Source: a gamma proteobacterium SCGC AB-629-P17 (lineage in GTDB: Bacteria; Pseudomonadota; Gammaproteobacteria; PS1; Pseudothioglobaceae). From it: a stretch of DNA of 35,808 nucleotides. The notes beneath the pieces are model-generated. The model ran no database searches and was not told the origin of the DNA. It saw only the letters and a list, made by a program, of their open reading frames with translations. Made by a program: the position numbers and the translations under genes. Location of the stretch: the NCBI GenBank assembly GCA_000372785.1, contig KB889760.1:1-35808 (forward strand). The letters are read 5' to 3'. Below are positions 1,310-5,113 of this stretch, in pieces. Each line of letters begins with the position of its first letter. Positions within the stretch are counted from its first letter, which is position 1.

Positions 1310-1400
1310 GGGGACAAACTGAGTGCTGCAAACTAGCAGCCTTTAAGTTTGTTTCCTTAGTTTTACGGCATCTCTCCCCCTGAGATGCTGTTAAAACTAA
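1310..1400 (+). promoter_or_regulatory. Two consecutive stable hairpins (terminator or structured RNA)
   Basis: Hairpin 1: an arm at 1310-1320 (GGGGACAAACT) pairs with 1345-1356, enclosing an inner stem GCTGC/GCAGC (1325-1329 with 1336-1340). Hairpin 2: an 18-base arm at 1357-1374 pairs almost perfectly with 1382-1400 around a C-rich loop (1375-1381), followed by a T-rich run. The octamer TAGTTTTA occurs at both 1303-1310 and 1358-1365, and either copy can pair with the TAAAACTA near 1392-1399, so two alternative folds are possible. The simplest reading is a terminator of the upstream operon. An attenuator or ligand-binding RNA is possible; I could not match it to a known riboswitch class. 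Confidence 0.6.
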
Positions 1401-1534: not shown

Positions 1535-3835
1535 ATGAGACTATCCAATATTAGATATACTGATGACTGTGAGACCTACCAAATACTTGGTGGTGAAGCG
1601 GTTTCAATTGATTTGCAAAGCGGAGACTCTGTTGAAGTTATTGACGTAGAAGGTGACCAGAAATGCAGCCTTTTAGCGTTTGACTCGAAAGGCTCATCGG
1701 TGATGGATGCACTTGACTGGAACACTCAGCCAAGCAGCAATTCTTCAAAAGTCTCTATTGAAGATTGTTCTGATATGCTTAAGGCGATCTTAGGTCATAA
1801 CAAGATTAAAACTAATAATTTAACAGGCGCTGATCTTTTTTCAGCTGCAAGTCCTGCTGACTCGCGTCAATCTTTTCGTATTGATAAGGACACCTTATGC
1901 ATATTTGACGCAAAAGGTGGACCTATGATTGTCGATGAACATGACGCACCAACTGAGATTTTGATAAACGTTTCTCGCGCAAATCCAACCAAACCATCTG
2001 AACGACTTCCAGAGCCTCTAGCAAAAAACGCTCAGGAGATTAGGGTAAATAACAGTACAGCAAAGGCTTATAAAGTCAAGGCAGGTGAATATATACAGGT
2101 TATTGATGTTGAAGGGCATCAATGTTCAGATTTTCAAGCCTTTTTAGTTGAAGACTTAAAAAACAATAGGGAACTGAATCTGGACCCAACGGTAACAAGA
2201 TCACACATGCTTAAAAGTTACCCTGAGCCAGGATGTCATGACAAGTTTTATAATCAGAATTCAGTTCCGCTTGTCGAAGTTGTTCGAGACTCTGTTTGCA
2301 GGCATGACACATTTGGTCTAGCTTGCAACGCTAAATATTATGAGGATAGAGGTTTTCCAGGACATGTCAATTGTAATGAAAACTTCAACAAATCTCTCGC
2401 AGAGTATGGAGTCGCGCCACGAAAGAATTGGGTGGCCGTGAATCTATTTTTCAATACAGCAATTGAAGAGTGCCATGCACTCTCTGCAGATGTTTCTTGG
2501 TCGAGACCAGGTGACTATGTTTTATTTAAGGCTTTGGATGACTTGGTATGCGTGTCATCAGCATGCCCAGACGACACCTCCTCTGCTAACAATTGGAATC
2601 CAACCGATATCCATGTTAGGATATACAATAATAGTAACAATTTTTCACCAGCGACGGCCTTTAGGCCTGACCCACAATCAATACCCACTATGACTAAAGA
2701 AACCGGTTTTCATAAAAACACTTCAAAATTAACCAAAAACTTTGACAACTATAATGGCTATTGGTTGCCACTTGATTACACTAATTTAGGAGCCATAAAG
2801 GAATACTGGCAATGCCGTGAAGGGGTTGTTATGATTGACCTAGCACCGCTCAGAAAGTTCGAGGTCTATGGTCAAGATGCAGAAACACTGATGCAATATG
2901 CAATAACTAGAAACGTTCGTAAACTGGCCGTCGGTCAGGTTGTTTATTCTGCTATGTGCTATGACAATGGATGTATGGTAGATGACGGAACCTTATACCG
3001 TCTCTGCGAAAATAATTTTCGCTGGGTCGGTGGTTCAGAGGAAGGTGGTAAATTATTGCGTAAAATTGCCAAGGAAAAGAATTTAGAAGTGTGGATCAAA
3101 TCTTCCACAGACCAACTTCATAATGTTGCTGTCCAGGGTCCAAAGAGTCGCGAGACTCTAGCCAAAATTATTTGGACACCAAGACTCCAACCTGATGTTG
3201 AGGAACTTAAATGGTTCCGATTTTCGATTGGACGTATCGGAGGTGAGTTTGGTATACCGGTGATGGTTTCTCGTACAGGATACTCAGGTGAGCTTGGTTA
3301 CGAGGTTTTTGCTCATCCCGATGACTGTGAAGCAGTTTGGGATGCCATTGCTGAGGCCGGTGAAGAATTTAATATATGTCCTCTAGGCCTTAATGCACTT
3401 GATATGTTAAGAATTGAAGCGGGTTTAATTTTCGGAGGTTATGAGTTCTGTGACCAGACGGATCCGTTCGAAGCCGGTATCTCATTTACGGTTCCATTGA
3501 AAACAAAAGAGGATGATTTTTCTGGAAAAGAATCTTTGATTCTTCGTAAGAATTCTCCCCAAAGAACCCTTGTTGGGTTAGAATTACACAACAATGAAGT
3601 TGCACTGCACGGTGATGGCGTGTATATTGGTAAGCAACAGGTAGGAATCGTTACAAGCGCAACACGTTCGCCTATATTAAAAAAGAACATTGCCTTGTGC
3701 AGAATTTCAGTTTCAGAGTCAGAAATTGGCACTGAAGTTGAGGTAGGAAAGTTAGATGGACATCAAAAGCGCCTAGCAGCGACTGTAGTTCGCTTTCCGT
3801 TTTATGATCCTGAGAAGACACGAGTTAGAATGTAA
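1535..3835 (+). CDS. DUF1989 (two copies) - GcvT/DmdA-like aminomethyltransferase fusion
   Basis: A 766-residue cytosolic fusion. Residues about 15-150 and 170-370 each look like a DUF1989 (urea-carboxylase-associated) module: both carry an IDVEG(D/H)Q(K)C core (residues 36-44 and 190-197). Only the second keeps the full Cys/His set (CSD 197-199, CRHDTFGLAC 255-264, HVNC 277-280). Residues about 395-766 form a GcvT-type folate-binding aminomethyltransferase, with CMVDDGTLYRL (480-490; Asp483/484 at the catalytic position), a VSRTGYSGELGYE segment and LGLNALDMLRIEAGL. GcvT-family enzymes move a methyl or methylene group from an amine or sulfonium to tetrahydrofolate. The gene has its own promoter and lies directly before a betaine-type importer, so a methylated-amine demethylase is the best guess; the substrate is unknown. 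No usual SD is visible at the start. Confidence 0.85.
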   Translation: MRLSNIRYTDDCETYQILGGEAVSIDLQSGDSVEVIDVEGDQKCSLLAFDSKGSSVMDALDWNTQPSSNSSKVSIEDCSDMLKAILGHNKIKTNNLTGADLFSAASPADSRQSFRIDKDTLCIFDAKGGPMIVDEHDAPTEILINVSRANPTKPSERLPEPLAKNAQEIRVNNSTAKAYKVKAGEYIQVIDVEGHQCSDFQAFLVEDLKNNRELNLDPTVTRSHMLKSYPEPGCHDKFYNQNSVPLVEVVRDSVCRHDTFGLACNAKYYEDRGFPGHVNCNENFNKSLAEYGVAPRKNWVAVNLFFNTAIEECHALSADVSWSRPGDYVLFKALDDLVCVSSACPDDTSSANNWNPTDIHVRIYNNSNNFSPATAFRPDPQSIPTMTKETGFHKNTSKLTKNFDNYNGYWLPLDYTNLGAIKEYWQCREGVVMIDLAPLRKFEVYGQDAETLMQYAITRNVRKLAVGQVVYSAMCYDNGCMVDDGTLYRLCENNFRWVGGSEEGGKLLRKIAKEKNLEVWIKSSTDQLHNVAVQGPKSRETLAKIIWTPRLQPDVEELKWFRFSIGRIGGEFGIPVMVSRTGYSGELGYEVFAHPDDCEAVWDAIAEAGEEFNICPLGLNALDMLRIEAGLIFGGYEFCDQTDPFEAGISFTVPLKTKEDDFSGKESLILRKNSPQRTLVGLELHNNEVALHGDGVYIGKQQVGIVTSATRSPILKKNIALCRISVSESEIGTEVEVGKLDGHQKRLAATVVRFPFYDPEKTRVRM

Positions 3836-4004: not shown

Positions 4005-4961
4005 ATGAATAAGTTTACAAGTAAGGTAGCTGCAGCTGCTTTGTCGTTAACTTTGGCTTCGGTATCTGGTCAGGCTCTTGCGGCTGACTCGACAAAGCCA
4101 ATCGTTATACCAATTCACAACTGGTCAAGCCAAGTGGTTATGTCCTACGTGATTGGTGGTATTTTTGAGTCTATGGGTAACAACGTAGCTTACGTTCCTG
4201 CTGACTCGAACGGTGTATATGAATCGATTCGTCTTGGAGATGTTACTATATCTCACGAAGTTTGGGAAGGAGCCTTTGGCCACGCTTACTATACAGCCAT
4301 GGAGAAGGGCGGTCTAATAGAGGCTGGTACCCATTCTGCCTTGACTATTGAAGATATGGGCGTTCCTAACTTCGTAATAGAGCAAAATCTATGTCCTGGA
4401 CTTCCAGATTGGAATGCTCTTAAAGGTTGTGGATCAGTTTTTGCCACTGCCGATTCTGGTGGTAAAGGTGTTTTCTTAGACGGTCCTTGGCACGTTGATC
4501 CGGATACTGGAAAGAATCTATTTGAAGATCGTATTGGAGCTCTTGGTTTAGATGATGAATACACTTATAAACAAACTGGTAGTGCAGACGCTCTTTGGGC
4601 CGCTATTGATTCTGCAGAAGCTGCTGGAGAAGGTATAATTATATTTAACTGGACACCTAACTTTACGGATAGTGATGGTTTTTACTTCATAGAGTTTCCT
4701 CCATACTTCTATGGTTGCCGTGAAACAGAAGGTGGTGACGGGGCTTGTGGATCTCCTAGAGGTTGGTTGAAGAAAGCGGCGAACTATAAGTTCCCTAAGA
4801 CTCATCCAATGGCGTATAAGGCATACACTAAGATAGACTTCTCGACTGGACAAATCGGTCAGATGGCTGCTCTAGTTGATATTGATAAGATGTCTCATGA
4901 AGATGCTGCAGCTAAGTGGCTTGCAGATAACGCGGATGTTTGGGAGGCTTTCACAAAGTAA
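4005..4961 (+). CDS. Glycine betaine/proline betaine ABC transporter, periplasmic binding protein (OpuAC/ProX type)
   Basis: A 318-residue protein with a classical signal peptide: basic start, hydrophobic core to about residue 25, and an ALA-A cleavage site near 26-27. The mature part is an OpuAC-family quaternary-amine binding domain. The aromatic residues that usually cage the trimethylammonium group are candidates at Trp40 (HNW), Trp87 (HEVWEGAF) and Trp216 (FNWTP). Two paired-looking cysteine sets (CPGLPDWNALKGC and CRETEGGDGAC) suggest disulfides in the periplasm. It is first in the importer set, with a strong SD and a terminator-like hairpin after it, which fits higher expression than the ATPase and permease. 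Ligand specificity (glycine betaine, proline betaine, DMSP, choline) cannot be read from sequence alone. Confidence 0.92.
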   Translation: MNKFTSKVAAAALSLTLASVSGQALAADSTKPIVIPIHNWSSQVVMSYVIGGIFESMGNNVAYVPADSNGVYESIRLGDVTISHEVWEGAFGHAYYTAMEKGGLIEAGTHSALTIEDMGVPNFVIEQNLCPGLPDWNALKGCGSVFATADSGGKGVFLDGPWHVDPDTGKNLFEDRIGALGLDDEYTYKQTGSADALWAAIDSAEAAGEGIIIFNWTPNFTDSDGFYFIEFPPYFYGCRETEGGDGACGSPRGWLKKAANYKFPKTHPMAYKAYTKIDFSTGQIGQMAALVDIDKMSHEDAAAKWLADNADVWEAFTK

Positions 4962-5020
4962 TCCTTTAATCTAGAGCGCTCTTTATTCGAATAGAATGAG
5001 GGGTGTTTGTTAAGTACTAA

Positions 5021-5067
5021 GTACCCTTACCCTTAAATTAATTATAATAAGGGGGTAGGGGTATTTT
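5021..5067 (+). terminator. Hairpin with T-run between binding protein and ATPase genes
   Basis: The left arm, from GTACCCTTACCCTTA at 5021, pairs with TAAGGGGGTAGGGGTA (5049-5064), with some G-T pairs, and TTTTT follows at 5063-5067. It lies 60 bases after the binding-protein stop and before the ATPase. It probably ends most transcripts there, making the binding protein more abundant than the membrane components. Confidence 0.65.
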
Positions 5068-5113
5068 TGTATATACTGAGTGTTTTTTGTTTCAAAGAAT
5101 TTAGGAAGATATT

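Follow-up and report, generated by a model that had tools for sequence, protein, structure and literature searches.

A conserved hairpin pair behind the last gene of an operon in Pseudothioglobus: a proposed lineage-specific 3'-untranslated-region RNA that may pair with the leader of its own operon

Bacterial 3' untranslated regions (3' UTRs) that regulate their own operon have been described in a few model species. In Staphylococcus aureus, the Shine-Dalgarno region of a single gene is reported to be bound by a C-rich motif of the icaR 3' UTR (PMC3868564). OppZ and CarZ of Vibrio cholerae are reported to be autoregulatory small RNAs (sRNAs) from 3' UTRs, made as products of RNase E (PMC7398697). 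A further comparison is offered by the mycobacterial B11/6C sRNA, whose C-rich loops are reported to repress a 5' UTR bearing a G tract (PMC10470900). The present analysis concerns a pair of hairpins, P1 and P2, in a stretch of 35,808 nucleotides (nt) from the gamma proteobacterium SCGC AB-629-P17 (contig KB889760.1, positions 1 to 35,808; the whole stretch is called the window below), located between the last gene of an operon and tdm, the gene of trimethylamine N-oxide (TMAO) demethylase. Comparison of genomes indicates that this element is a conserved RNA, lineage-specific to one genus of ocean bacteria. It is tentatively proposed, with a confidence somewhat short of an even chance, that it is a 3'-UTR RNA whose P2 loop pairs with a G-run in the leader of its own operon, giving feedback. 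If this is true, one self-regulating 3' UTR would be added from an ocean genus that is represented chiefly by metagenomes and single cells. It would have been recognised purely by sequence analysis, beside genes of TMAO breakdown, and with the partner site predicted to the base.

The fold of positions 1295-1420 reached -46.9 kcal/mol (z -6.84), a stability equalled in 0 of 200 shuffles, and the opposite strand was weaker (-38.6, z -4.05). P1 occupies 1309-1357 on the + strand and, as judged from the fold and from relatives, has a conserved base and a variable upper stem. It is followed on the same strand by P2 (1358-1399), with the stem AGTTT..CGGC / GCTG..AAACT and the apical loop TCCCCCT (1375-1381), which is the candidate pairing site for the operon-leader G-run. 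The two consecutive long hairpins that an earlier note on this DNA had read at 1310-1400 were therefore recovered by the fold. Among the 45-nt stretches of the + strand of the window, P2 (1357-1401) was joint most stable and P1 fourth. Since one position of P2 occurs with G-U, G-C and A-U pair types, the RNA is placed on the + strand. The alignment and the consensus fold also brought out a conserved 5' motif, GTAAGT (1297-1302, + strand), just 3' of the stop codon. Pairing of this motif with GCTTAT of the last codons is possible, and the extended consensus fold contains a hairpin spanning the stop codon (GCTTAC with GTAAGT), for which both compatible and broken cases were seen by eye. In Rfam 15 no match at the gathering score was found for the hairpin region, a tRNA being the sole match in the window; the one match for the element, to sar, was far below its threshold (18.2 bits versus a gathering score of 43, E 0.42), and 6C was absent from the Rfam matches of the element.

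The 128-amino-acid (aa) gene that ends the upstream operon was used to follow the locus among genomes. A homologue was present in 28 of the 58 genomes searched, 26 of them among the 29 genomes of the window's genus (Thioglobus/Pseudothioglobus/SUP05, with close relatives named, among others, Candidatus Thioglobus, Pseudothioglobus aerophilus and SUP05 cluster bacterium); in three other genomes of the genus, all incomplete, it was not found. Every genus genome whose sequence extends past this gene (24 of 24) carries the element, as one copy and in the same place. The remaining two of the 26 reach a contig edge, G022 inside the gene and G026 after 55 nt, and in the latter the 5' motif and part of P1 are still visible. 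At the corresponding place, genus g5 (G032, G073) lacks P1 and keeps a remnant of P2 whose loop reads CCC, and genus g9 (G036) has nothing. Model R1 matched 25 of 83 genomes of the family, namely the 24 of the genus and G032; in a sample of 369 class-level genomes, searched with strict filters, the window's own genome alone was matched. Model R2, built on P2 only, did not find the element in 18 wider loci, and a pattern scan of viral contigs gave 0 matches. The idea of a repeat or mobile element was dropped, as R2 gave a single site in each of 24 genomes out of 29; beyond the element and its reverse strand, its matches were one with E 0.005, in G001, and one each in G010, G018 and G022 with E values of 0.3-0.9. 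Among the papers and top-ranked titles found in the open-licence literature, none describes such an RNA in this genus, and the passages of PMC12478193 that were covered contain nothing on it.

A covariance check in related genomes, proposed in the earlier note, brought out the compensatory base changes whose absence was, in that note, to count against its reading. The alignment comprised 23 distinct rows, leaving aside L012 (identical to L011), L022 (which keeps a P2 relic alone) and L025, L026 and L027, which are truncated or lack the element. The P1 pairs of the structure were set by hand and the changes were counted on an alignment fitted to that structure, so the counts lean towards it: 95.1 % of cells were paired, 48 cells were doubly changed in comparison to 17.9 after shuffling (0 of 500 shuffles as high), and the covariation score was 0.305 versus 0.183 (again 0 of 500). 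Eight pairs showed two-sided change, a number reached in 2 of 500 shuffles, and slid controls were all lower than the real structure. Two-sided change was seen in 3 of the 7 modelled pairs of P1 (86.9 % of cells paired) and in 5 of the 16 pairs of P2 (98.6 %). RNAalifold run on the plain MAFFT alignment recovered P2, with 5 two-sided pairs, and not P1; single-sequence folds of relatives gave both hairpins, the upper stem of P1 varying on a conserved base. On these comparative grounds the two-hairpin structure is well supported.

Mean pairwise identity, taken over 19 genomes (rows L005, L012, L024, L028, L029 and those from outside the genus set aside), was 84 % for P2 and 83.5 % for the 11-nt block of the 5' motif. 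The spacer, by comparison, had 35 %, and the fourfold sites of the adjacent gene had 56 %. These values bear on the explanation that the hairpins are a mere mRNA 3' end, blocking exonucleases or marking a processing end without any partner. Two very stable contiguous hairpins right behind the last gene are what it would predict. It is nevertheless unlikely, as the sequence of P2 is conserved while the upper stem of P1 varies freely, and a mere barrier could do without a C-run.

In 23 of the 24 genomes the 5' motif starts 1-6 nt past the stop codon of the upstream gene, and in G016 the reading frame enters it. Between this stop codon and tdm, 20 of 23 genomes have 191-246 nt and the remaining three have 292, 451 and 748 nt; in G001 and G019, with gaps of 451 and 748 nt, the RNA is still 1-2 nt from the stop codon. 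The RNA thus tracks the upstream gene where the gap to tdm widens, which happens in few genomes, and these positions make a 3'-UTR element belonging to the upstream operon, and not an attenuator of tdm, the best reading. By position, it lies in the 3' UTR of its own operon in the way of OppZ and CarZ. G021 has no tdm downstream on the contig. On its contig 128 (L005, L169) the element is followed by an inverted gene of the substrate-binding protein (SBP) of the neighbouring transporter in place of tdm, possibly a chimeric single-cell assembly.

The earlier note had seen in the hairpins the layout of an attenuator or riboswitch, working by alternative pairing, before tdm, which it called the DUF1989-GcvT gene. 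The sequence of the window does contain TAGTTTTA twice (1302-1309 and 1358-1365), and TAAAACTA at 1392-1399 is able to pair with either copy, so that an alternative pairing of 9 base pairs (bp) is possible there. The first TAGTTTTA copy, however, is private to the window (1 of 24 genus genomes), and pairing between the 3' arm and the sequence preceding P1 can span 3-7 bp, counting G-U pairs, in the 18 other genomes measured. Two mutually exclusive pairings, both conserved, as expected of a riboswitch or attenuator, were not observed, and the alternative pairing is not supported as a switch. Further points against an attenuator or riboswitch of tdm are a promoter-like site of sigma-70 type, TTGACT-18-TATAAT (1479-1508, + strand), placed 3' of the RNA and before tdm, past which read-through transcripts may nevertheless run, the wide gaps in G001 and G019 and the lack of an Rfam match; such an attenuator or riboswitch is regarded as extremely unlikely. 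The earlier note had itself pointed to a separate promoter at 1479. A scan of 5 kb gave 13 sites of this type versus 11.5 expected, of which this one scores best, and similar hexamers recur, by eye, before tdm in many relatives.

The loop of P2 reads (A/U)CCCCCU, mostly followed by G, and its C-run has five C in 21 genomes and six to eight in three. A complementary run, AGGGG, is situated 48-53 nt before the ATG of the first gene of the upstream operon in all 24 genus leaders. In 21 of them it extends to AGGGGG; it reads AGGGGGA in two sister genomes of the window's, G017 and G027, and the same letters are predicted for the leader of the window's own genome. Shortly 3' of it lie a small A/U hairpin, a run rich in U and the likely Shine-Dalgarno sequence. 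In all 21 genomes with both parts, an uninterrupted Watson-Crick run could be formed between loop and leader, of 7 bp in nine genomes, 6 bp in ten and 5 bp in two. The loop A stands opposite a leader T (6 genomes) or C (10), and the loop T opposite a leader A (3) or C (G001 and G019). Cognate duplexes had -13.15 kcal/mol in comparison to -12.82 for shuffled partners (p 0.0008 over 11 distinct combinations, relatedness ignored). AGGGGG is rare: five genomes of the genus, 1.5-1.7 Mb in size, contain it 80-121 times per strand, i.e. about 1 % per 200 nt. The G-run was not found at that place in the outgroup leaders of G036 and G073 or in any of 19 wider leaders. Two of these 19 carry AGGGGG at another position in the 200 nt; the set came from 17 of 18 records (two records with two genes each and one without a leader) and are mostly of higher G+C.

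Several observations weigh against the proposed pairing and the structure that underlies it. Further pair types in the covariation analysis were not above shuffles (114 of 500). The loop-T/leader-A combination belongs to one clade, so the two-sided change amounts to one event, and elsewhere the leader base switches between T and C while the loop keeps A; A faces C as a mismatch in 10 of 21 genomes, and T faces C in G001 and G019, which are left with just 5 bp. Dinucleotide shuffles of the leaders matched the observed run in 0.007-0.81 of cases, and this fraction was 0.04 or less in just 9 of the 21 genomes. In predicted folds the leader G-run is partly paired (mean unpaired probability 0.43). 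It is not the Shine-Dalgarno sequence, the likely one being GGAGAG nearer the start. A G-run is also carried by a hairpin between the SBP and ATPase genes downstream of tdm, and G036 contains fewer copies of AGGGGG (23 and 35 per strand), which makes its absence from that leader less telling. Complements of the loop were sought first before tdm and in the SBP-ATPase gap and then in the upstream operon, and the leader set was drawn from genomes other than that of the window. Complementarity is found in 21 of 21 genomes, and the statistics of a P2 loop/leader pairing are mixed.

In the tentative scheme, the C-loop of P2 would base-pair with the leader G-run of the same operon, either in cis within one mRNA or by means of a 3'-end RNA that has been set free. 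Both ends of the operon message may in this way pair with each other. Such pairing would feed back on the operon, for which repression is a guess. The likeness to icaR would lie in a C-rich 3'-UTR motif acting on its own 5' UTR, here through the loop (A/U)CCCCCU; in the icaR case the partner is reported to be the Shine-Dalgarno region, whereas here it would be the G-run at -48 to -53 relative to the start of a five-gene operon (PMC3868564). With OppZ and CarZ the element would share an RNA at the operon 3' end that pairs with its own transcript, a pairing predicted in the present case; those are reported products of RNase E (PMC7398697), whereas the U-tail of this element is not conserved. In B11/6C a C-rich hairpin loop likewise meets a G tract in a 5' UTR, and B11 is reported to have two C-rich loops (PMC10470900); the element has one, in P2, so that two hairpins with a C-rich loop in each were not found. 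The predicted working of the element resembles that of the three systems, and the evidence assembled here places it in none of them.

A related explanation is a trans-acting sRNA derived from the 3' UTR, whose C-rich loop would bind several G-rich sites, namely the operon leader, the SBP-ATPase intergenic hairpin and the start region of tdm. It could account for the loop C-run, present in all 24 genomes, for the AGGGGG that 15 of 22 SBP-ATPase stretches contain (in L169 this is merely the reverse strand of the element), for the position of the sole + strand AGGGGGT of the window at 5050, within the SBP-ATPase gap, and for the AGGGG that 7 of 24 rows have no more than 40 nt ahead of tdm. A precedent is found in the B11 RNA of mycobacteria, reported to act with C-rich loops on a 5'-UTR G tract (PMC10470900). 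G-runs are, however, common in terminator-like hairpins here, the U-tail is not conserved, and the exact complement of the 5' motif (AAATCACTTAC) was not enriched: across 29 genomes it had 41 matches (9 of them the element itself), and the reversed control had 45; this explanation is accordingly given a low probability. A decidedly unlikely extension of the proposed leader pairing would be a new RNA family that joins both ends of the approximately 5-kb operon mRNA, the C-loop being docked on the leader G-run beside the A/U-rich hairpin and the U-run for feedback, and that touches as well the G-run hairpin of the neighbouring TMAO transporter operon. If true, one 3'-end RNA would coordinate both halves of methylated-amine use in Pseudothioglobus.

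Two other partners were considered and set aside. A pseudoknot of the P2 loop with AGGGG at the base of P1 was rejected on the reasoning that the 17-bp P2 stem seems too long to fold back, and G023 has just AGG at that base. Pairing of the 5' motif with AAATCTT of the leader is, by eye, lost in several genomes.

The earlier note had also allowed that the hairpins may serve only as a terminator for the genes upstream, and an intrinsic terminator is indeed what hairpins sitting between two operons would suggest. The U-tails were scored, leaving out the value for the P1 tail of L024. The P2 tail of the window, at 3.83, is borderline, being near the 4.3 of the SBP-ATPase hairpin (12 of 12 cases), and P2 tails exceed 4 in 4 of 23 genomes (G021, G017, G009 and G010). 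Across the genomes, however, they range from 0.46 to 5.18 and fall below 3 in 14 of 23, and the P1 tails score about 2.4-3.2 throughout, staying near 2.6, so that a hairpin with a U-tract conserved in relatives was not observed. Termination at P2 may occur in the genome of the window, and a role as the intrinsic terminator of the upstream operon is, as an explanation of the element, very unlikely.

The upstream operon enters the window with the 3' part of its penultimate gene (3-890, + strand), which encodes a glutamate-synthase domain (Pfam Glu_synthase PF01645, E 8.7e-68). The last, 128-aa gene (904-1290, + strand) belongs to no known family: its product had no Pfam or NCBIfam match, and the best PDB match had E 0.17. 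Relatives of this protein are encoded in at least 569 stretches of genome contigs. In G028 the operon is complete and runs, with short gaps, from a GS-III-like gene through a class II glutamine amidotransferase gene, a 280-aa gene and the glutamate-synthase-domain gene to the 128-aa gene. The GS gene scores under the GS-III cut-off (303.6 versus 469.6). From gene order, we infer a cluster of N-methylglutamate or methylamine type.

The leader of the GS-III-like gene (L165 8500-8790) has a TTGACA..TATACT promoter in 24 of 24 cases, with 186-212 nt from the -10 to the ATG. It contains a consensus hairpin and then the A/U hairpin and U-rich run before the Shine-Dalgarno sequence, had no Rfam match at the gathering score, and may, from these features, be a regulatory leader in its own right.

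Downstream of the element, tdm (1535-3835, + strand) was identified by NCBIfam NF053776 with 1121.3 bits at a cut-off of 1100. It is followed by genes of a glycine-betaine-type SBP, an ATPase and a permease. The SBP (4005-4961 in the window) occurs in the genus in two types, with 91-98 % and 68-72 % identity to that of the window, which do not track tdm or the 128-aa gene: G017 has 93 % identity in tdm and 69 % in SBP, and G002 has 79 % and 95 %, respectively. This mismatch in sequence identity suggests exchange of transporter genes. At about 4974-5072, between the SBP and ATPase genes, lies a second hairpin pair, the second hairpin of which has AGGGGGTAGGGGTATTTTT and the terminator-like tail of 4.3. 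The pair is similar in relatives sharing the SBP type, and its second hairpin is doubled in G027 and G008.
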